Source of the DNA: a virus
DNA: 22,505 bases
IMG/VR virus record: IMGVR_UViG_3300027973_000233
Coordinates: 1 to 22,505 of that record
Direction: 5' to 3' (one strand)
Made by a program: the position numbers and the translations under genes. Shown here piece by piece: positions 841-22,393 of this stretch (the first letter of the stretch is position 1; every line of letters starts with the position of its first letter). The notes beneath the pieces were generated by a model that saw only the letters and a program-made list of their open reading frames with translations, searched no databases and was not told the origin of the DNA.

Positions 841-1269
841 TTATCCCTTTAAAGCTGCGAGTTGAATGTATTTTGGAGTGAGTTCGATGACCTTGTTGGG
901 ACGGAGCGCAACGACGCGCTCAACGGATCCAACCGGCCAGCGTTTGAACATTTCTAAGAAGAGTAAAGTAAGCCCGCCCTTGCGGGTGTTTACGACATCA
1001 AGGATCACCAGAATCTTGCCGAATGGATTGGTGCCGCGCCATTCCCATTTTGCCGTGATCTCCTCGGGATTACATTGGATCGCGGTGCCAAGTGCTACGA
1101 TCTCACCCTTATCTTTTACCAAGGCAAGAGTGTTCTGGCCGGCGTGGAATGCTAGATACTGACGGACGGACTCCCTTGGCCAGTTAATGAAGCAGCCGGC
1201 GTTGCCATTTTTGACAGCAAAGTCGGTGATATGCTCAAGCCAGTCGATCTTTTGAGCATCAGCATTCAT
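841..1269 (-). CDS. T7 gp13-like / GNAT-fold internal virion protein
   Basis: The protein has 142 residues. Its start codon shares one base with the stop of the nozzle gene (TAATG). The central and C-terminal part (about 48-125) alternates short beta strands with a helix: an ALVKDKGEIVALGTAI-like strand pair, a WEWRGTNPFG turn, a VILDVV strand, a helix over LLFLEMFKRW and a VERVVALRP strand. This is the order expected for an acetyltransferase-like (GNAT) fold. Small GNAT-like proteins lie between tail and ejection genes in many podoviruses, T7 gp13 being the classic case, and are thought to help assembly rather than act as enzymes. I cannot point to a clear acetyl-CoA-binding R/Q-x-x-G-x-G/A loop, so catalysis is doubtful. 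The assignment rests on fold pattern and neighbours. Confidence 0.5.
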   Translation of the reverse strand: MNADAQKIDWLEHITDFAVKNGNAGCFINWPRESVRQYLAFHAGQNTLALVKDKGEIVALGTAIQCNPEEITAKWEWRGTNPFGKILVILDVVNTRKGGLTLLFLEMFKRWPVGSVERVVALRPNKVIELTPKYIQLAALKG

Positions 1270-3077
1270 TACTGTTCAGATACCAGATCTCGGCCTGGCA
1301 CTGTTGCATTGACGCGCAGACCGCGGATCGTTGGCCGGCCATAGGTGCTCTCAAATTTGAGATCCAGACCAAAGCCACGTTTGGCGATTGGGAAGCGTTT
1401 TGTGTAATCTTGCGTGGATCCCGATGCGAACGTGAAAACTTCGGACGAGTTGTCTGGATTCTTGGCGATGGCCGTAATGACCAACGTATCGTTCGCATTG
1501 GACAGGATGTCCACCTCGCCGGAAGCAAATCGTTTTGCCGTGAATGTATTGTAAAAATACCGACGCGTCAGGATCTGGCCGGCGACCTGATACTGACGGA
1601 AATTATTCGTGATGTACGCAGGAATCTGAAACGGCAGCGTTGGCGTGCCGGTTAGGTTTTCTAGTTCGTCGTAATTTAGTTCTTCGCAGAGGAAGATGCC
1701 ATTCTCACGGTTGATGGCGTACATGCGCTTGGCCTCACCGTAAAGTGAGACGACAAAATTATCGACGTACATGCCGGTTGGGAACGTGTCGATAGATTCC
1801 CACGCCTTATTGAGCATTGAGTAGACCAGCACCGCATTATTGCGAGTGGAGCCATCAATTGGGACGGCCAGATAGTAGCGGTTGTTGAACATGCGCCCAA
1901 TTGAACCAGAGACCGCGGTGGCGTTGATTCTGGCGATGATGTCAGAGATAGGATCGGACAGTGGGGTCGTGTTACCGAGCAGCTTAAGATCAAGCGAAGG
2001 GTTAAGTAAATACACCCCATTGTCCGAAAGAAAAAAGATGTACTCGCCGGCATTCACTACGGTGCGCCGAGCCGAGCATCCAAATTCTGAGGTCAACGAC
2101 TGAATGAAAGAGTTGCCACCAGGGGCGGCGCCGGACGTGTAGCCATTAGGATCGATGTAGGCGTAGTAAATCGAGTTGCGCTCAAAGATAATGAATTTGT
2201 CTTCCTGCCACGGCTGGAATCCTACGATGGCGTCGTTGGATCCCAGGTTGATGACGAACTGAGCAAAGTCCACGTCCCAGGTGTTGTAGTCGAGGTAGTC
2301 TGAAGCGGCAATACGGTCACGCGCCGTTTTAACCACCAGACGATTCTTAAAATAGAGACCAAAGTCGCTGCACGGCATATTGGCCGTTGCGCCGGTAGTC
2401 ACGCCCTGGGGAACAACGCTCACCGTCGATACGCCATCCCAGACGAGCGGTGCCTTACCTTTCTTGCAGACAATCGTGCCTGTGGCCGGCGTGGCGGGCG
2501 TGCCGCCTACCGTGTAGTCGAACGTGTTGGCCGTGACATTGGAAATTACGAATGATCCATTGTAGTCGGTCTGCGTTGCGCCCGAGATGATGACCTCGTT
2601 GCCGTTACTAAAACCGTGCGCGGTGATCGTGACAGTGGCGGTGGTAGATACCCGCGTAATGCTGGTGACGGACACCGGATCGTTGCCCTGGCCGCGGAAG
2701 ATGTACATCACATTGTTGGCCTGCACAAGATCCACCTTGTCGGTCACTGCAATGGTGCGGCCGGTTGGGTAGTTGATCGCGCTGCCAACGGTCAGCGTGG
2801 CGGTGTTGTAAACGTAGATGGCGCTGGCCATTGCCATGACGATGTACTCGACGCCGGCGGCGGTTGAGTAGACGCCCGAGCCGTAGATCGGTAGCCCGGT
2901 AATATCTACGGTGGTCAGGCGCTTCTGGCCCTTGCGAGTAATGGCAATACCAAGGTCGAGCCGCATATTCTGCGAGAGCTGGACGTATCCAGGCTCAAGC
3001 TGGAGCGGATTCAATCGGCTCTGCATGCCGATGAAACCGTTCTCGGCTTCGACCATGTACTGGTTACTCAGTGCCAT
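1269..3077 (-). CDS. Tail nozzle / tubular protein (beta-propeller-like), 602 aa
   Basis: The start ATG follows the stop of the 47-aa gene by a single base. The sequence is beta-rich throughout, with propeller-like blades such as VEYIVMAMASAIYVYN, KFIIFERNSIYYAYID and GEYIFFLSDNGVYLLN, and a conserved-looking C-terminal barrel region. This resembles the nozzle or tubular tail proteins (T7 gp12 class) that close the short tail. Residues about 137-204 form a separate insert (HGFSNGNEVIISG followed by YNGSFVISNVTANTFDY) of the kind found as a mobile Ig-like or beta-sandwich module in many phage virion proteins. Length is normal for the class. Position between tail fibres and the gp13/ejection genes supports the call. 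An alternative is another tail hub or stabilisation protein with a propeller fold. Confidence 0.65.
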   Translation of the reverse strand: MALSNQYMVEAENGFIGMQSRLNPLQLEPGYVQLSQNMRLDLGIAITRKGQKRLTTVDITGLPIYGSGVYSTAAGVEYIVMAMASAIYVYNTATLTVGSAINYPTGRTIAVTDKVDLVQANNVMYIFRGQGNDPVSVTSITRVSTTATVTITAHGFSNGNEVIISGATQTDYNGSFVISNVTANTFDYTVGGTPATPATGTIVCKKGKAPLVWDGVSTVSVVPQGVTTGATANMPCSDFGLYFKNRLVVKTARDRIAASDYLDYNTWDVDFAQFVINLGSNDAIVGFQPWQEDKFIIFERNSIYYAYIDPNGYTSGAAPGGNSFIQSLTSEFGCSARRTVVNAGEYIFFLSDNGVYLLNPSLDLKLLGNTTPLSDPISDIIARINATAVSGSIGRMFNNRYYLAVPIDGSTRNNAVLVYSMLNKAWESIDTFPTGMYVDNFVVSLYGEAKRMYAINRENGIFLCEELNYDELENLTGTPTLPFQIPAYITNNFRQYQVAGQILTRRYFYNTFTAKRFASGEVDILSNANDTLVITAIAKNPDNSSEVFTFASGSTQDYTKRFPIAKRGFGLDLKFESTYGRPTIRGLRVNATVPGRDLVSEQ

Positions 3078-3078
3078 G

Positions 3079-3222
3079 TTATTCAGCTTTCTTCTCTTCC
3101 TTGGGCTTCAAGGCTTCGACGAGCACTTCCGCGCTTTTGCGGATGATGTCGTGTTGCTCAGCCGTTAACGGCGCGAGTCGTGCAGCATTATAGATATTAT
3201 TGAGGGCTTGTTCGGTATTCAT
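3079..3222 (-). CDS. Small conserved-type phage protein, 47 aa
   Basis: This short ORF starts with ATG at 3222 and stops with TAA one base before the nozzle ATG, so the two are very probably translated together. The product is helical and charged: an N-terminal helix (TEQALNNIYNAARLAPL), a turn, a second helix (AEQHDIIRKSAEVLVEAL) and a KPKEEKKAE tail. The two-helix form with a TAEQHDII-type second helix resembles small uncharacterised proteins found beside tail genes in podoviruses. No enzymatic motif is present. It could be a chaperone or assembly partner of the neighbouring fibre or nozzle, which is inference only. No Shine-Dalgarno sequence is seen before it. Confidence 0.7.
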   Translation of the reverse strand: MNTEQALNNIYNAARLAPLTAEQHDIIRKSAEVLVEALKPKEEKKAE

Positions 3223-3282
3223 GTGTTTTAGTTGGATTTGAGTGCGGCGACACGTTGACGAAACGACTGAAGTTCAGCAAGA

Positions 3283-4542
3283 TTATTGGTTATTTATTGC
3301 TGAGACGCTAAGACTATCGCCATTTCGCGTTGCACCAGCAATAGCTTGAACGTAATATGGAGATGAGCCACCAGTTGAGAGTTGAATCTGCGTTGCTGAC
3401 GGAGAACTCGTCGTGAAAATAGAACCAAGTTGCGAGACAATGGTGATACCAACGGAAATGTCCCACAACACTAACGCCTGACCACCTACCGAGGCATCTC
3501 GTACCCATAGCAGTCCAGAAACGCCTTCTGCTGAATTGGTGACGATGGTTTGCGTAGAAGAATTAACGGTTACCGTTTTAACTAGCTTTTGCGTTCCATT
3601 ATCAACGTGCAATTTTGCCGTAGGACTCGTCGTCCCAATGCCGACGTTGCCGGAGGTATCTACCGTAACGCGAACCGTGTTATTTGTGACAAGTCGGAAA
3701 GCATGATTGGATTCAGTTCCAACCCAGCCAGCCGTATCACCGGCAGTAAGCGATTGAAGTTTGGTGATGATGCTTCCGTCAACAGCTCTGACATACGGAT
3801 TATTACCAGCATTGCTTGTGCTGATGTTGCCCGTCACAGCGAGTCCGGTGGAGGAGATGCTGGCAATCGTAGTGCCTCCGCGCATTAACTCTAAATTGTG
3901 AGCCGTAGTAGTGCCAAAGCGAATCAGACCTGATCCATCATAGATGAGCGAGCCAGCAACCGCGCCATCAGAACGATCAAACACAAGCAATGTTGTTGTG
4001 GCTGTATCATATGCGTGAAGGTATCCAACTGTTTGACCAGAAGAAGCACCGCCAACACCAAACTGAGCACCAGTAGAAATGTTAGATGAAATCTTTCCAC
4101 TCGCGCTCAACGTCGTAAACGCGCCTGTGCTAGCCGTTGTGGCTCCCACGGTGCCGTTGATGTTGATCGAGGCCGTGCCAGTCAGGTTGGTCACCGTGCC
4201 GCTTGTAGGCGTGCCCAGCGCACCATTAAACAGCACCGGAGCACCCGCGCTGCCAGTATTAACCGCCAAAGCCGTAGCGATGCCCGTGCCGAGACCCGAG
4301 ACGCCCGTGGAAATTGGAATGCCAGTCGCATTTGAAAACAACTGCGTGAGCGTCGATTTGCGCAGTGCGGTGTCCGCGGCGCTGTGCAGCAGGATCGTGT
4401 CCGCGGCGAGCGGTACAGTCTTCGCGGTCTGATCGGTGATGGCGCCAGGCAGCAAGATTGCTGAGTCGGCCAGTGCGTTGAGATTAGCCGCCGTTACCTG
4501 ATCGCCCGTAATGTAGGTTGTTCCTTTTTGAATTTGTGCCAT
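3283..4542 (-). CDS. Tail fibre-like protein with GIGTTSP motif, 419 aa
   Basis: A Gly/Ser/Thr-rich low-complexity protein. The N-terminus (IQKGTTYITGDQVTAANLNALAD, about 4-26) is typical of phage fibre and appendage proteins that attach to the virion. The middle contains a GTPTSGTVTNLTGTA stretch (about 110-124) and TTASTGAFTTLSASG (135-149), both common in fibre shafts. Residues 298-313 read GNVGIGTTSPTAKLHV, the motif that joins shafts to C-terminal domains in many fibres and autotransporter-like proteins. The last 100 residues (VKTVTVNSSTQTIVTN onward) are a distinct beta-rich tip. No intramolecular chaperone (SGNH or endosialidase-type peptidase) motif is seen. It lies 11 nt downstream of the larger fibre gene. 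Likely role: host receptor binding. Confidence 0.75.
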   Translation of the reverse strand: MAQIQKGTTYITGDQVTAANLNALADSAILLPGAITDQTAKTVPLAADTILLHSAADTALRKSTLTQLFSNATGIPISTGVSGLGTGIATALAVNTGSAGAPVLFNGALGTPTSGTVTNLTGTASININGTVGATTASTGAFTTLSASGKISSNISTGAQFGVGGASSGQTVGYLHAYDTATTTLLVFDRSDGAVAGSLIYDGSGLIRFGTTTAHNLELMRGGTTIASISSTGLAVTGNISTSNAGNNPYVRAVDGSIITKLQSLTAGDTAGWVGTESNHAFRLVTNNTVRVTVDTSGNVGIGTTSPTAKLHVDNGTQKLVKTVTVNSSTQTIVTNSAEGVSGLLWVRDASVGGQALVLWDISVGITIVSQLGSIFTTSSPSATQIQLSTGGSSPYYVQAIAGATRNGDSLSVSAINNQ

Positions 4543-4553
4543 GTGAGTGGTGG

Positions 4554-6851
4554 TTATGGGAGTGACCCAAATTGATAAGTCGTGTTGTTGATTCTAATAA
4601 ATGCCCCCGCAGACGTTGACCAAACGTCCCCGTTGACGGGTGATGTAGGCGCTACTCCCGGAATAATACGCAGACTAGACACGGTTGTTGTCGAACCTAA
4701 AATGTTTAGATTGGTACTTGCCGAGGTAGCGATACCAACGCCGGCCAAGGTCAGGGTGGGACTGGTGAGCGTCTTGTTCGTCAACGTGTCCGTCGTGGCC
4801 TTACCAACAAGCGTGTCTGTCGCGTCAGGCAACGAGAGCGTGCGGTCAACGGTCTGCGTGCTCGACAACATCGTGCGCGTATTCGTCGTGCCGCCACTAG
4901 CATTAAACATGAGCCGCTTGGTGCCATCAACCGAGTCCTGTACGTTGACGTAGCCTGACGCGCCCTTAGCTGCTAAATGCAGACCGACGCTGGCATCTGT
5001 TCCGGTTGCCGTAATGTGAACAGCATTTCCAGTCGCTGAGTTCTCAATGGTAACTTGATTAACCGCTGACGCAATAGAAGCTAGTTTGAGCGTAGCGTTA
5101 GCACTCGCATCGTTGATTTGAGCGATGACTGGGGTGGTGATTGTGGGCGATCCTGACAGCACCACATTAGTGGTTCCGGTCGATGTCGTCACGCCGGTGC
5201 CGCCGTTGACTACGGGTAGTGCCGTGCCGCTGTAGGTAATCGCCAGCGTGCCGGCGCCTGTAATTGGACTACCAGAAATTGACAAAACGCTTGGCACCGT
5301 TGCGGCCACGCTGGTGACCGTGCCGCCAGACGAGGGAGAACTATTTGTAACCGTAAAGCTAGGATAGGTGCCGCTGACAGATATACCCGTGCCGGCAGCA
5401 ATGGCTACCGTCTGATCTGGTGCGCTGTTGGTAATGGTGAGCGTGCCACTTGATGTGATAGGGCTGCCGGAAATTGTTATTCCAGTTCCGGCGGTGGCCG
5501 CGACACTTGTAACCGTTCCCGTGAACGCATCGTTCGATGTAACCGTAAAACTTGGATAGGTGCCCGTAATAGCCGTGGTTCCGGCTCCAGTAAGAGAAAC
5601 TGTTTGGTCGGGCGCCGTATTGGTAATGGTGAGCGTGCCGCTGGTAGTAATAGGACTACCCGACACACTAATTCCCGTGCCAGCGGTAGCCGCAACAGAT
5701 GTCACCGTCCCGCCAGCATCAGCGACAAAGCTAACATTCGTGCCGTCGCTCTGTAGATTCTTGCCACTTGCGCCGGCCTGGCTTGGCAGCAAGGCATTGA
5801 GCGCCGCCTGTGCCGTAATCTGACCTGTGCCGCCCTTTGCAATTGGAACCGTGTCCGACAGTGTAGATCCTGCGGCGGTGACGGTAATCGCTGCGGAGCC
5901 GTCAAAATTTACGCCGTTGATGGCGCGTGCAGTCTGAAGAATGGTCGCACTCCCAGCGTTGCCCGTAATGGTCGTCTGGTCGCCAGTGTTAGTGCCTGAT
6001 AGATTCGTGCCGGTTACCGTGCCGGTTGCAGCAACGGATGACGGGGTGATGGCGCCGAGCGTCAGGCTGATGGCTGGCGTCGTGGTCGAGGTCGCGACGG
6101 ATCCGCTCACGCCATTGACAGTGGTCACCGAGACGCTGGTCACAGATCCCACGCCGGCCGCAGCCCATGACGTGGTCGATCCGTTGGTTTGAAGTACCTT
6201 GCCAGAATTGCCAGCCTGGCTTGGCAAAATATCGTTCGCATCAGGCGCGACCCATGTAGCGTCTGCGCGAAGAAATTTTTTGGCTGCGGCAGATCCCGAC
6301 GTTGGCGCCGGCACCAGACCATGCGTGCCACCGGATCCAGAGTCGCCCACCATGTCTGGCAGCATGCCATTGAGCGTGGCCATGTCCAAGTCACTTGGGG
6401 CGCCGGTGCCACTTGAGCGACCCTTGACCGTTGGGCCGGTCATGTTGGCCAGCTTTGCATTCGTGACCACGCCAGGTTGGATCGTGGTCGTGATCGACGA
6501 CGTGCCAGATCCAGCAACGTCAGATGACAGCGTGATCGTCTGGTCGCCGGTATTTGTACCGCTCAGATTAGATCCGCTGATGGCGCCGACAGCCGTGACG
6601 GCATCTGGCGTGATTGAACCGAGCGCCAGGGTGATGGATCCAGACGACGTAATCGGGCTGTTGGTTACAGCGATTCCATCCGTGCCAGTAATGCCAACGG
6701 ATGTGACAGTGCCGCCGCCAGCAGCCGCAAAAATCTGAGCAACCGTGGCCCTCTTGTTGGTCGAGGTGTTACCGTCCACCATGACGGTGTAGTCCGTGGT
6801 GTTTACGGTTGTGGCTACTGGTAGCTGAGAGATTTTTTTATCAACACTCAT
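4554..6851 (-). CDS. Large repetitive tail fibre / appendage protein, 765 aa
   Basis: A very Gly/Ser/Thr/Val-rich protein. The N-terminal 45 residues (DKKISQLPVATTVNTTDYTV, then an AQIFAAAGG linker) are the usual virion-anchoring start of environmental phage fibres. A unit beginning (G/S)(T/S)VTSV recurs at about residues 47, 236, 381, 445 and 510, and the last three are close copies (SGSPIT.SGTLTIT, then TYPSFTVT in two of them). SGTNTGDQT occurs at 97 and 286, LPSQAG.SGK at 209 and 355, and GGTG motifs at 340 and 550. Near 681-705 there is a TLTNKTLTSPTL element, and the end is a small beta domain (NGDVWSTSAGAFIRINNTTYQF). The ATG lies in an ATGA overlap with the 38-aa gene upstream. Likely role: a receptor-binding fibre shaft. 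Repeats at DNA level make it prone to recombination. Confidence 0.8.
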   Translation of the reverse strand: MSVDKKISQLPVATTVNTTDYTVMVDGNTSTNKRATVAQIFAAAGGGTVTSVGITGTDGIAVTNSPITSSGSITLALGSITPDAVTAVGAISGSNLSGTNTGDQTITLSSDVAGSGTSSITTTIQPGVVTNAKLANMTGPTVKGRSSGTGAPSDLDMATLNGMLPDMVGDSGSGGTHGLVPAPTSGSAAAKKFLRADATWVAPDANDILPSQAGNSGKVLQTNGSTTSWAAAGVGSVTSVSVTTVNGVSGSVATSTTTPAISLTLGAITPSSVAATGTVTGTNLSGTNTGDQTTITGNAGSATILQTARAINGVNFDGSAAITVTAAGSTLSDTVPIAKGGTGQITAQAALNALLPSQAGASGKNLQSDGTNVSFVADAGGTVTSVAATAGTGISVSGSPITTSGTLTITNTAPDQTVSLTGAGTTAITGTYPSFTVTSNDAFTGTVTSVAATAGTGITISGSPITSSGTLTITNSAPDQTVAIAAGTGISVSGTYPSFTVTNSSPSSGGTVTSVAATVPSVLSISGSPITGAGTLAITYSGTALPVVNGGTGVTTSTGTTNVVLSGSPTITTPVIAQINDASANATLKLASIASAVNQVTIENSATGNAVHITATGTDASVGLHLAAKGASGYVNVQDSVDGTKRLMFNASGGTTNTRTMLSSTQTVDRTLSLPDATDTLVGKATTDTLTNKTLTSPTLTLAGVGIATSASTNLNILGSTTTVSSLRIIPGVAPTSPVNGDVWSTSAGAFIRINNTTYQFGSLP

Positions 6852-18933: not shown

Positions 18934-19302
18934 TCATCCTCTGAGGTCATGCACGATCTTGGCAAGCGCGTTGTGTTGTTCAACTACCTGACTTAGTACG
19001 CCTTGCAGATGCTTAACCTTGGCCAACGACTCGCGCACCTGGCGCCTAAGGTCGGCCATCTCGCCGGCGATCCTCATCCTCCTGTCATCCTCGGTCTCAA
19101 AGGTCACATGCTCGGCTCCCTGCCAGATGCGGCCGCGGGTAAGAAAGATCAGGTGTCCCTTGTTGCGCAGGTAGTGGAACGTGCGCTGCGCCGTAGGCAA
19201 GTCGCAGCCTGCTTCTGATGCGATAAAAGCAAGTACGGCACTGCGTTCGGGTATGCGATCATGCCGGCGAGGCTCCATTCTGCGGAAAAGGTCACAGGTC
19301 AT
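18934..19302 (-). CDS. Winged-helix / coiled-coil replication-module protein, 122 aa
   Basis: The start overlaps the primase-helicase stop (ATGA). Residues 15-60 (HDRIPERSAVLAFIASEAGCDLPTAQRTFHYLRNKGHLIFLTRGRIW) look like a winged helix-turn-helix with a strand and turn (wing). Residues 73-122 form a coiled coil (RRMRIAGEMADLRRQVRESLAKVKHLQGVLSQVVEQHNALAKIV). A DNA-binding head with a dimerising coil directly after the primase-helicase fits a replication accessory protein or an operon regulator. I do not recognise a named family. Its last codons overlap the tandem repeat downstream. Confidence 0.65.
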   Translation of the reverse strand: MTCDLFRRMEPRRHDRIPERSAVLAFIASEAGCDLPTAQRTFHYLRNKGHLIFLTRGRIWQGAEHVTFETEDDRRMRIAGEMADLRRQVRESLAKVKHLQGVLSQVVEQHNALAKIVHDLRG

Positions 19303-21107
19303 AGCTTGATGGTGGCTGGAATGACGGCCGGCTTAGGCTTGAACATCACCGAAGGTGCGTACTCCCAGCAGATGCCGGCCTGCGAGTGGCGTAGACGAAT
19401 GGCTGATGCCGGGTTACCCATGAGATCCACCATGCCGCTGCGCTTGCCACGCTTAGTCAACGTGAAGGTGAAGGTCGGATCGTCGCCCTGGCGTTGCAGC
19501 ACGCCAACCTCTCGAGACCAGTTGGTGAGATCCGCGGAGCCGGCGCCGGCGTAGGCCAGATCCGACACGGTGCCCTTGGACTGGTCGCCCTTGGGTGGTT
19601 TCGGCATGTGGTGGAGCCAGATCCAGACGCATCCGGTCTCTTTTAAGACTGGATTAAGATGGTTGCGCAGGAATTTGCTCATGAACTTCTGTTCGCTGAT
19701 GTCGTCGCCGGCATAAGACAAGAGCGGATCCGCAATCATCAAATCAGCCTTGTGCTTCACGATGATGGATCTGGCCAACCTAATAAACTCAAGGCCGGTC
19801 TTAACGGTCTCGTCGTAGAACCGGATATTGGTGTTTAGGGTCTCCAGATCTGACTGGTTGTACCGCATCGCATCGATGACGCCGCGGAATGCCTCGGCCA
19901 TGTCGCCCATGTCATTCTCGGCCTGGATGAATGCCACGCGCAGTGGTCTGATTGGTTTTATGCCAAAGAAGTGCCTCCCAAGGCCAAAGGTCAGACCCAA
20001 TTGCATCGCAAACGACGACTTACCGACGCCAGACTGGCCCACAATGGTGAGCGACCCACCGCGGCATAGCCAACGCTTGCCAAGGACATTGTTGGGATCG
20101 TTCTCGGTGTCGTACTCAAGCAATTCCTGCGGTGTGGTAGGATCTGCGATCTCGGACTGATCACGCCAGTCGATCCACTCCTGCCAGGTCGATAGGCCAA
20201 TGTTAAGCGCCACTAGCTTCTGCTCGATGTCGCCGCGCATGATGCCAGGTAACCGGCTGAACCGCGATGGATTCTTGTTGGCCTCGCAGGGATCGTAGTC
20301 GGACAGGTAGTCATACACGATGTCCCGGCGCTCATCAAACTCGGCCTTGTCGGTCGCATCGACGCGCACCCAGGCGTGAAGTGACCGTCCACCGGAGTCG
20401 ATCACCGCGGCGATGGGAAGCTGGCACTGCTGAATGATCTGCATCTGCTCCTCCTTTGGCTTCTCGTCGAACTCGATCAGCACATGCCGGTAGTCGGCGA
20501 CGTTGGCGTCGGATCCGACATATTGGTCAGGCTTCGTCGGGTTAATGCGGATCCAGGCGCCGGCTTCCTTGCCGTCCCAGATGGCGTCAGGGAAACGCTC
20601 AAGCCAGCGCACCTGAGTCATAAATGTACCACTGGCCGATGGAAACCATTTGCCGCGCTCTTCGTCGTGCCGGGCCTCGTTGGTGATACAGATCCAGTCG
20701 GTAGGCAAAAAGACCGTCTCGAGGAATTTCTTAGTGGCCTCATATCCGGTCAGCTCGGTGCTGGGCGCCGCCGCCGCCGCCGGCAATGAGCGCACGATGA
20801 ACTTGCCGGTGGGCGACACGCACGACGGACGACGCACGCTGACATCACCGATCAGATGGCCGGCCGGCTTGTCGTGTGGCTTCTTGATGGCCTCGTCGAT
20901 CTTGTGCTCGAGTTCTCGAGTGCTCCACGGTGGAACGCACTTTGCGTTGTACTCGCCAAGCAACCAGAGCGCATCAATTTTGTTGAGTGAGAAACCATGC
21001 ACCAGCGCGACGGCGACGGTGTAGGTTGTGGAGTGACCGCCTGATCCAGAGATGGCGGGTGGGCAGTGCGCGAGGTACGCTCGAGCACGTTCTAGGATGG
21101 GATTCAT
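19299..21107 (-). CDS. Primase-helicase fusion: PriCT-like, AEP primase and RecA-type ATPase, 602 aa
   Basis: The ATG at 21107 gives 602 residues and starts 7 nt after the upstream stop; a longer in-frame start at 21167 would overlap that gene and add unrelated residues. Residues 1-78 form a PriCT-like domain (ERARAYLAHCPPAISGSGGH, then WSTRELEHKIDEAIK). About 170-300 is an archaeo-eukaryotic primase-like domain: HVLIEFDEK (208-216, acidic E212/D214), SGGRSLHAW (238-246, S and H) and NPSRFSRLPG (279-288). About 345-560 is a RepA/AAA_25-type RecA ATPase with Walker A GQSGVGKSS (357-365) and Walker B KADLMIADPLLSYAGDD (453-469). HHMPKP (499-504) is the sensor region. It would unwind DNA and prime phage replication. 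The gene order and fusion are common in environmental podoviruses. Confidence 0.85.
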   Translation of the reverse strand: MNPILERARAYLAHCPPAISGSGGHSTTYTVAVALVHGFSLNKIDALWLLGEYNAKCVPPWSTRELEHKIDEAIKKPHDKPAGHLIGDVSVRRPSCVSPTGKFIVRSLPAAAAAPSTELTGYEATKKFLETVFLPTDWICITNEARHDEERGKWFPSASGTFMTQVRWLERFPDAIWDGKEAGAWIRINPTKPDQYVGSDANVADYRHVLIEFDEKPKEEQMQIIQQCQLPIAAVIDSGGRSLHAWVRVDATDKAEFDERRDIVYDYLSDYDPCEANKNPSRFSRLPGIMRGDIEQKLVALNIGLSTWQEWIDWRDQSEIADPTTPQELLEYDTENDPNNVLGKRWLCRGGSLTIVGQSGVGKSSFAMQLGLTFGLGRHFFGIKPIRPLRVAFIQAENDMGDMAEAFRGVIDAMRYNQSDLETLNTNIRFYDETVKTGLEFIRLARSIIVKHKADLMIADPLLSYAGDDISEQKFMSKFLRNHLNPVLKETGCVWIWLHHMPKPPKGDQSKGTVSDLAYAGAGSADLTNWSREVGVLQRQGDDPTFTFTLTKRGKRSGMVDLMGNPASAIRLRHSQAGICWEYAPSVMFKPKPAVIPATIKL

Positions 21108-21114
21108 GTGGGAT

Positions 21115-21279
21115 TTATTGTTTGCAGCGATTTCGTAGCTCGCTGCGCAGTGCCTCGACAAAGACAATTGTCTGAGGCGTGATGGGTAATTCTAACAGTT
21201 CGAACGCGGTGTAGCACTGGCCAAGCAGCACACGCTGCTCCTCGATGATATCATTTTTTTCCTTTAAGATATCTTTCAT
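21115..21279 (-). CDS. Small helical protein, 54 aa (unknown)
   Basis: I take ATG at 21279 (MKDILKEKNDIIEEQRVLLG), because a longer in-frame start at 21357 would overlap the previous gene by over 100 nt. It overlaps that gene's end by 29 nt. The product is a helix (KEKNDIIEEQRVLLGQCYTAFELL), a proline turn (PITPQT) and another helix (IVFVEALRSELRNRC). It ends 7 nt before the primase-helicase start. No family is recognised. It could be a small partner of the primase-helicase, by position only. Confidence 0.55.
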   Translation of the reverse strand: MKDILKEKNDIIEEQRVLLGQCYTAFELLELPITPQTIVFVEALRSELRNRCKQ

Positions 21280-21445
21280 CAAATTCTTCGCGGATGCGCT
21301 CCTTGATTTTATTTTTGGTCTTTCGTCCGCGTTGTATCTCTCGGCGCCAGTCTTCACCTGTGATGGTATTGAAAATGTGATCGTAGTTTTCGCGGTAGTG
21401 TTCCGAAAAACAGTTCCGCGGTGAGTCGCCCTTTCCGTTGTTCAT
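21251..21445 (-). CDS. Small basic protein, 64 aa (unknown)
   Basis: The ATG at 21445 overlaps the stop of the beta-helix gene (ATGA). The sequence is polar and basic: NNGKGDSPRNCFSEHYRENYDHIFNTIT, then WRREIQRGRKTKNKIKERIREEFDERYLKGKK. The 'GDSPRNCFSExYRxNYDxIF' start is a pattern I associate with small phage proteins of unknown function in replication regions. The C-terminus is a long basic helix that could bind nucleic acid. No enzymatic motif is present. Confidence 0.65.
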   Translation of the reverse strand: MNNGKGDSPRNCFSEHYRENYDHIFNTITGEDWRREIQRGRKTKNKIKERIREEFDERYLKGKK

Positions 21446-21987
21446 TTTTTTGAGAATAGATTCAGAATAAAGACATAGACCTTCAGCATGAGCGACTGCC
21501 AGAAAAGAATCTTCACGTCGCCGCCGATCACCACTGGCCGATCAGCCCAGCCCACGCGCACCCGAATTGGTTTACCATCGCTGCGCCGGCAGTTCACAAT
21601 GCGCACGTCGGTCGTCTTGCCCTTCGCGTTGTCCGAGTAGTTTCCGATATCAATATCAACCTTTTCCCAGCCGCCGCCGCCGCGGGTGATCGTCACGTTG
21701 GAAAGATCGATCTGGCTGCTTCCACCTTTGATTGTGAATGCGTACTTGGCGCCGGCACCCACCTGGCATTTGCCAATGTAGATCGAGCGGCAGAATCGCA
21801 TGATGTCGATGCCGTCCTCACGGTTGCCACCGGACGGATTAATGATGCAGTTGTTAATGTTGGCGCCCTCGACGTGCGACAACTTTAGGATGTCGTCGTA
21901 CTGCTCAGGGTTTGGCGCATCGATGGTATCATTCTGGATCACGACGTTTTGTTCGTCGGCGTAGCTTTTGTAGTTTTTATCGCTCAT
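21442..21987 (-). CDS. Right-handed beta-helix (pectate lyase-like) protein with hydrophobic C-terminus, 181 aa
   Basis: The start overlaps the HTH gene stop (ATGA). From about 10 to 140 the sequence shows short repeated strands with stacked Asn/Ile/Val: VVIQNDTIDAPNPEQYDDIL, ANINNCIINPSGGNREDGID, IYIGKCQVGAGAKYAFTIKGG and IDLSNVTI. The NN(C)-I-I / I-G-K-C / L-S-N-V-T spacing fits a right-handed parallel beta-helix (four or five coils). After RVRVGWADRPVVIGGDVKI (139-157) comes a hydrophobic helix (LFWQSLMLKVYVFILNLF) and a KK end. No catalytic Asp/His set typical of polysaccharide lyases is clear. It lies in the replication operon rather than with tail genes, so it is probably not a tailspike. 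A membrane-tethered or cell-surface role is possible. Confidence 0.6.
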   Translation of the reverse strand: MSDKNYKSYADEQNVVIQNDTIDAPNPEQYDDILKLSHVEGANINNCIINPSGGNREDGIDIMRFCRSIYIGKCQVGAGAKYAFTIKGGSSQIDLSNVTITRGGGGWEKVDIDIGNYSDNAKGKTTDVRIVNCRRSDGKPIRVRVGWADRPVVIGGDVKILFWQSLMLKVYVFILNLFSKK

Positions 21988-22268
21988 GGTTTTTTGGAAA
22001 AAGTAATGTGCTTACCGTTTAGGACTCGAGACACGCAGGCCGGCGAACGCGACATGCGCTCGCAGATCAGACTGGCCTTCATGCCTGAGTGATGCAGCTC
22101 AAGGATCTTGTCATGTTCTTCTTGGGTGAGAAAGTCACGGCGCGTGATAATTTGGTCGCGCTCAACTCGAGGTTTCATGCCAGAGATGTTTGGGCCGTGG
22201 TTAAATTTATCGGCGTGCTTGCGCAAAATAAATTCAATGTTCCGCAAGGTTTCACTTGGGCTGTTCAT
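21984..22268 (-). CDS. Small HTH DNA-binding protein, 94 aa
   Basis: ATG at 22268 overlaps the stop of the zinc-ribbon-like gene (ATGA); a longer in-frame start (TTG at 22388) would mostly overlap that gene and is not used here. The N-terminus (SPSETLRNIEFILRKHADKFNHGP) is helical. Residues about 43-90 (TRRDFLTQEEHDKILELHHSGMKASLICERMSRSPACVSRVLNGKH) form a clear helix-turn-helix: 'EEHDKILELHHSGMKASLICERMSRSPACVSRVL' has the turn at S-G-M and the recognition helix at SPACVSRVL. It is probably a transcription regulator. It ends in an ATGA overlap with the beta-helix gene. Confidence 0.75.
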   Translation of the reverse strand: MNSPSETLRNIEFILRKHADKFNHGPNISGMKPRVERDQIITRRDFLTQEEHDKILELHHSGMKASLICERMSRSPACVSRVLNGKHITFSKKP

Positions 22269-22393
22269 TTTTTCTTTTTTGGACGGCCACCCTTTTTGCC
22301 GTTGATGCGTGCGCTCTGCGCCTTGCGTGGAGTTTTGATTGATCCCAAGAGCGCCGCAGCGTTGATGGGTTTGTGACAGTGGGGGCAATTCAT
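22265..22393 (-). CDS. Zinc-ribbon-like small basic protein, 42 aa
   Basis: A short ORF read directly: ATG at 22393, TGA at 22265-22267. The protein begins MNCPHCHKPINAAALLGSIK and ends in NGKKGGRPKKKK. The C-x-x-C pair at residues 3-6 resembles half a zinc ribbon; no second CxxC follows, so metal binding would need a dimer or other ligands. The very basic tail suggests nucleic acid binding. Both ends overlap the neighbouring genes (ATGA). Proteins of this form, with a CPxC start and a GKKGGRPKK tail, recur in phage early operons. Function is unknown. Confidence 0.75.
   Translation of the reverse strand: MNCPHCHKPINAAALLGSIKTPRKAQSARINGKKGGRPKKKK

Follow-up and report, generated by a model that had tools for sequence, protein, structure and literature searches.

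What does a small beta-helix protein do in the middle of a phage replication operon, and does its position there say anything about its function? The question arises from a stretch of viral DNA of 22,505 nucleotides (IMG/VR record IMGVR_UViG_3300027973_000233, positions 1 to 22,505; hereafter the window), in which a single-domain protein of 181 aa, P0001, is encoded on the minus strand at 21,442-21,987. A sequence-only reading had described a beta-helix with a hydrophobic C-terminal segment, coupled by ATGA overlaps to both neighbours in a replication setting, and from this position had proposed a non-virion role. The genetic setting is as described, with all genes on the minus strand. Upstream, the stop of an HTH-like gene of 94 aa (21,984-22,268) overlaps the beta-helix start in an ATGA (junction CCATGAGC), and the HTH gene has an ATGA overlap with a 42-aa CPHC/GGRPKKK gene (22,265-22,393). 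Downstream, a 64-aa NGKGDSPR gene (21,251-21,445) overlaps the beta-helix stop in the same manner (junction AAATGAAC). The next large gene is a primase/helicase (19,299-21,107; 602 aa from the start seen in relatives; phrog_2597, E 2.1e-61; AAA_25, E 1.1e-15), with the 64-aa frame and an 80-aa gene (21,115-21,357), to which Pfam and PHROG scans assigned no function, lying between it and the beta-helix gene. The HTH call rests on Pfam matches under their cut-offs, and the start of that gene is most likely the ATG at 22,268, which gives 94 aa as in relatives. The beta-helix gene is under purifying selection (its comparison with eight relatives or their groups aside, omega was 0.035-0.214 throughout), and nine IMG/VR loci carry it at 91-100% identity.

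Three observations on the surroundings are recorded here in their own right. The 42-aa CPHC...GGRPKKKK protein is 100% identical in at least eight loci, in most of which the neighbouring genes diverge. The NGKGDSPR...NYDHIF protein lies directly 3' of the beta-helix gene in clades A and B, and similar NGKG[DS]xPR proteins are found just upstream of the beta-helix gene in L069 and L075 and at a distance of 2 to 6.5 kb in L052, L062, L063, L065 and L097. Near the terminase gene of the window, the frame at 15,580-16,245 matches phrog_3704, labelled ferredoxin, with E 8.5e-32.

Structure prediction bears out both the beta-helix and the hydrophobic segment. AlphaFold2 run on ten near-identical rows returned a mediocre model (pLDDT 68.4); run on a 42-row family alignment from iterated scans (A4), it reached a pLDDT of 92.5 and a pTM of 0.89. 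The strands of this second model fall within residues 5-160, and its sole helix of at least four residues is 162-179 (pLDDT near 79). Together with the conserved residues, this model places the beta-helix body (residues 5-160) at 21,508-21,975 and, together with the composition of the tail, the C-terminal hydrophobic helix at 21,451-21,504, both on the minus strand; the best hydrophobic stretch of 18 residues is 158-175, with a mean Kyte-Doolittle value (KD) of 1.67. As modelled, the protein appears to belong to the pectin-lyase-like superfamily and to form a small, right-handed parallel beta-helix. The window protein itself scores 13.0 bits against PF13229 (Beta_helix; cut-off 25.9), and relatives of about 52% identity with the same gene order attain the cut-off, namely L027 (31.7 bits, E 1.5e-7) and L035 (26.8 bits), with L036 exactly at it (25.9 bits). 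Among the 50 VIA-align matches listed (Z 11.9-15.7), most are beta-helix proteins and most are glycan-active or glycan-binding, with inulin lyase at 15.7, tailspikes at about 14, and polygalacturonases and PL3 lyases at 12-13. However, NosD (Z 13.7) and DHS dehydratase (Z 12.0) are listed as well, and Z values under about 13 may, for repeats, reflect merely a common arrangement, so the fold does not reveal the function. Foldseek matches to the PDB were weak (best E 0.02), and the top match among viral models was A0A6J5MX28 (E 1.1e-6), an uncharacterised protein of 176 aa from an uncultured Caudovirales phage, which at TM 0.73-0.75 and 24% identity most likely belongs to the same family; a search by accession found no mention of it in the papers covered.

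Comparison with characterised enzymes narrows the likeness without naming an activity. The A4 profile searched against PDB sequences listed twelve matches, eight of GH28 type, one to the phi29 preneck appendage and three that look like chance; rhamnogalacturonase A (1rmg) reached E 0.0027 over the whole sequence and 0.19 for its best single stretch, and the polygalacturonase ADPG2 (7b8b) reached E 0.0067. GH28 polygalacturonases and rhamnogalacturonases, right-handed beta-helices as well, hence give the best sequence matches in the PDB, but the family stays below the cut-off of PF00295 (best 17.0 bits, for L027, against 22.9), is about half their length, shows no signal peptide and carries an additional cationic tail. 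The catalytic motifs of GH28 are NTD, DD, GHG and RIK, and the register of the family against them is inconsistent, E57-D58 falling on the DD of 7b8b and on the TD of NTD in 8ikx. PL3 pectate lyases, such as the 195-198 residue chains of C. bescii, are of similar size and align with a VIA Z of about 12.5 over 145-146 residues, but at 12-13% identity and with no PF03211 match in Pfam scans. Homology to PL3, an idea that came from motif resemblance, was dropped: PF03211 was never matched in the Pfam scans, which took ten members up to E 10 and ten up to E 0.5 (HMMER filters drop weak matches), and a PF03211 search of 14 control genomes gave a match in none. A pentapeptide-repeat mimic of DNA was likewise dropped, as MfpA, AlbG and QnrB appeared in Foldseek at low TM only.

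The tailspikes among the closest folds (CBA120 TSP3 and Fri1 gp49, both beta-helices, Z about 14) suggest a different possibility, that of a minor virion protein, either the tip of a short fibre or a partner of the tail fibre, docked to the tail by its helix. One member, L052, also has a partial match of 29% (E 3e-3) to the K64-1 depolymerase S2-4, and the family resembles tailspikes and depolymerases in often adjoining tail-fibre genes. Tailspikes carry virion-binding and assembly domains, whereas the family protein consists of a single domain of about 180 aa. In the predicted model of the window protein (181 aa) the first strand already starts at residue 5, so that no space remains for an N-terminal virion-binding domain of the tailspike type. 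The gene order taken up below bears on this alternative from both sides.

Twelve columns are invariant in all 42 rows of A4 (D3, N5, D32, K35, G54, E57, D58, D61, T85, K87, G88 and G115), and an outward column on the first sheet is formed by K35, D61, T85, position 113 (D or E, with a weight of 0.97) and position 144 (R or K, 0.91), which in the window reads K35-D61-T85-D113-R144; its stacking is inferred from strand order. The mean entropy of this column is 0.43, whereas the alignment as a whole averages 1.96 and the inward-facing core of that sheet 1.50, and a fraction of 0.0001 of 20,000 random five-column sets was equally conserved, a test that is descriptive only since the ladder was chosen after conservation had been seen. 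Such a surface bears on the idea of a non-enzymatic passenger, or moron, whose beta-helix merely binds something and whose conserved face is structural: invariant outward charges would be unusual in a purely structural coil. The passenger idea does draw on the single copy found in all ten records searched (some of them fragments), on the patchy presence of the gene and on the finding, described below, that sister phages carry different subfamilies at different sites, and we give it a small chance. Of the apparent extra copies in clade B (matches of E 4-8), the one of 18 residues falls inside the terminase frame and was discarded.

The other shared feature is the charge of the tail. The last 25 residues carry a net charge of +3 to +8 in 42 of 42 A4 rows, and are cationic in all 57 distinct sequences of a later, partly overlapping set. 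Hydrophobicity is less general: the tail of the window protein comes near that of a transmembrane segment, but a mean KD above 1.5 is found in only four of the 42 rows, three of them from the clade of the window, and the best 18-residue stretch averages 0.57 to 1.37 in the other 38. An amphipathic tail helix is unsupported in 39 of 42 rows, the helical moment exceeding that of shuffled sequences at p<0.05 in only three. Judged by its sequence, the predicted tail helix could plausibly associate with a membrane or with the envelope. These figures bear on the role put forward in the sequence-only reading, here taken as that of an intracellular protein, not part of the virion, which during replication would be anchored to the inner membrane, where it might alter lipid-linked glycan precursors or exclude superinfection. 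The hydrophobic tail of the window clade, the absence of a visible signal peptide in the window protein, the coupled site in the replication operon of clades A and B, and the presence, in some large phages, of glycosyltransferase and methyltransferase genes close to it all fit such a role. Against it stand the lower tail hydrophobicity of those 38 rows and the variation of gene position across the family, and we regard it as unlikely.

To follow gene position, the extent of the family has to be known. A scan of IMG/VR with a subfamily alignment gave 268 candidate stretches, of which 249 encode relatives, so the family has at least 249 members; the best 80 of these 249 were retained. The A4 profile, although built in part from some of these sequences, confirmed every one. 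The family is seen almost only in viruses known from metagenomes. A tblastn search of 50,697 phage records with eight family proteins (E limits from 0.001 to 10) gave no full-length match, its only matches being one at E 4 and, in three records, the partial one of 29% between L052 and S2-4, a tail fibre of K64-1. PHROG scans of 21 members found no dedicated family, with weak tailspike or tail-fibre matches for L052 and L053, and NCBIfam scans of ten members (alignment A2) returned only a generic beta-helix match (E 0.058) and another, less strong, to an unrelated model. Nor do the openings of the abstracts searched describe such proteins. This large phage gene family has no dedicated family in the libraries tried.

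Among genome contigs, a first profile scan gave no match and a second gave two contigs of metagenome-assembled genomes (MAGs), both of which could be phage contigs that were binned with a bacterium. Of 387 genomes from the phylum to which the Opitutae MAG belongs, 21, that MAG included, had a match. The family motifs are retained in L100 (E 7.5e-19) and L101 (E 1.9e-13), whereas the remaining 18 match less strongly (E 2e-7 to 7e-4), within open frames of 356-908 aa. L100, from a Verrucomicrobiota genome (1243-2133, minus strand), is a relative of 296 aa with the motifs LKFS, EDALDIVRG, TIKGG and EFGNWSD, and its N-terminus is signal-like as judged by eye. In the order of the Burkholderiales MAG, the single match in 399 genomes was that MAG itself. 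A match on a Paracoccus plasmid (39% over 57 aa, E 0.3) was taken as chance.

Across this family, the replication setting turns out to be local. The beta-helix gene lies in the replication operon in clades A and B, and in the longer window-lineage records G005 (37.5 kb) and G006 (39.0 kb) a single strand carries, in this order, tail genes, a gene for a holin or a holin-like protein, other genes over about 7 kb (including DNA methylase and helicase genes in G005), the HTH gene, the beta-helix gene and the primase. In L049, L069 and L075 the gene follows a polymerase-exonuclease-like gene, and other members have gp23-type capsid and T4-like tail genes nearby, a RuvC-like gene before, a terminase gene after, or lipoprotein-like, glycosyltransferase and methyltransferase genes. 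These settings come from a tally that covers 26 loci with 131 neighbours (98 PHROGs and 34 Pfam families, the first 25 of each considered), which does not name the member and in which some labels were assigned by eye. Because the neighbours span replication, T4-like capsid, terminase, tail-fibre and holin-like genes, a replication-specific role was rejected as a property of the family. In the large phages L052, L061, L063, L076, L087 and L092, a lipoprotein-like frame of about 315-335 aa, opposite in strand and with an LTGC-type lipobox as judged by eye, recurs near the gene, as does a protein of 94 aa (phrog_18771, function not known; that of L087 was scanned).

One large group has the order tail fibre, beta-helix, holin-like gene. 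Of 85 distinct sequences, counted with the window and 11 loci of the bacterial search left aside, 80 had a downstream stretch, and in 22 of these 80 a holin-like gene starts 2-17 bases downstream of the beta-helix gene. Eleven of the 22 match a model built from the gene of L162, a named holin (phrog_3427, E 3.7e-24), and eleven a model from L149, L172 and L046, whose genes match phrog_6637 (function not known); four of the 22 match by construction, having helped to build the models, and 58 of 80 matched neither. In G799, a sister phage of the window and one of the 22, a single gene matches both holin-like families. With a holin-like gene directly downstream in about a quarter of the testable sequences, although not in the window, the protein probably works at the outer layers of the host rather than in DNA replication. 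Upstream, a frame of at least 400 aa ends within 400 bp in 24 of 72 testable sequences. Four such frames were scanned, and each matches a PHROG of tail or tail-fibre proteins, in two cases phrog_4492 (E 1e-50 and 4e-49). The minor virion protein considered above gains from these upstream genes and from sister phages with the gene among tail genes (L047, L048 and G799), and loses by the coupling to replication genes in clades A and B and by the position after a polymerase-exonuclease-like gene; on balance we consider it possible, if rather doubtful. The sequence-only reading is therefore partly supported: its description of the gene holds, and its non-virion role is weakened, since relatives sit between tail-fibre-like and holin-like genes and the position of the family is not tied to replication, so that location is no argument for such a role.

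The sister phages make the same point within one lineage. G799 (37 kb) shares structural frames of 66-92% identity with the window and a primase of 81% over the stretch covered, but its beta-helix gene is only 29% identical to that of the window and belongs to another subfamily (tree support 97/98, long branch). This gene, followed by a holin, lies between the homologues of the frames at 3,283-4,542 and 1,269-3,077, where the window has a gap of 205 bases (3,078-3,282). In L047 and L048, whose structural frames are 54-87% identical to those of the window, a third subfamily sits between the homologues of 4,554-6,851 and 3,283-4,542. Different subfamilies at different sites in related phages fit a function that is independent of operon position. 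L025, L026 and L032 have other small frames in place of the beta-helix gene between the HTH gene and a primase that is 85-87% identical to that of the window; absence of the gene from these close relatives and from L033 is only suggestive, as the records are fragments of 7-16 kb.

We tentatively propose, at a probability of roughly 40%, that the family comprises envelope proteins that engage glycans late in infection, around tail fibres and lysis. The invariant charged face of the exposed first sheet would engage a glycan of the host envelope, by binding or by cleavage, and the cationic hydrophobic helix at the C-terminus might dock the protein onto a membrane or a partner, for example the tail fibre. 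Acting at the tail-fibre and lysis stage, the protein could, for instance, loosen envelope glycans or free progeny from them; in the lineage of the window, the gene may have moved into the replication operon or been acquired separately, and might be made earlier. In favour of this proposal are the confident beta-helix with its terminal helix, the glycan-type matches, the invariant face, the cationic tail, the holin and tail-fibre neighbours and what looks like a signal peptide at the start of the Verrucomicrobiota relative. Against it are the distance of about 7 kb between the gene and its holin in the window lineage, where it lies among early genes, the majority of sequences without a holin-model match, the half of the positives contributed by phrog_6637, the weak Foldseek E-values and the lack of a known catalytic constellation in the protein as predicted. 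An account of phage SPP1 (PMC6316719) has its early units encode replication and lysis functions, so an early position does not exclude a role in lysis.

A bolder version of the glycan-engaging proposal, one that we hold to be unlikely, is that the family represents an unrecognised factor for lysis or progeny release in phages of uncultured hosts, in which a beta-helix that attacks or grips glycans is joined to a cationic, membrane-seeking helix, is co-expressed with a holin and can be replaced by distant homologues at other sites.

Together, the sites beside holin-like and tail-fibre genes and the occurrence of subfamilies at differing sites point to a selected function at the host envelope. 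The family thereby cautions against inferring function from operon position, and against naming such genes pectin-degrading auxiliary genes by fold alone.
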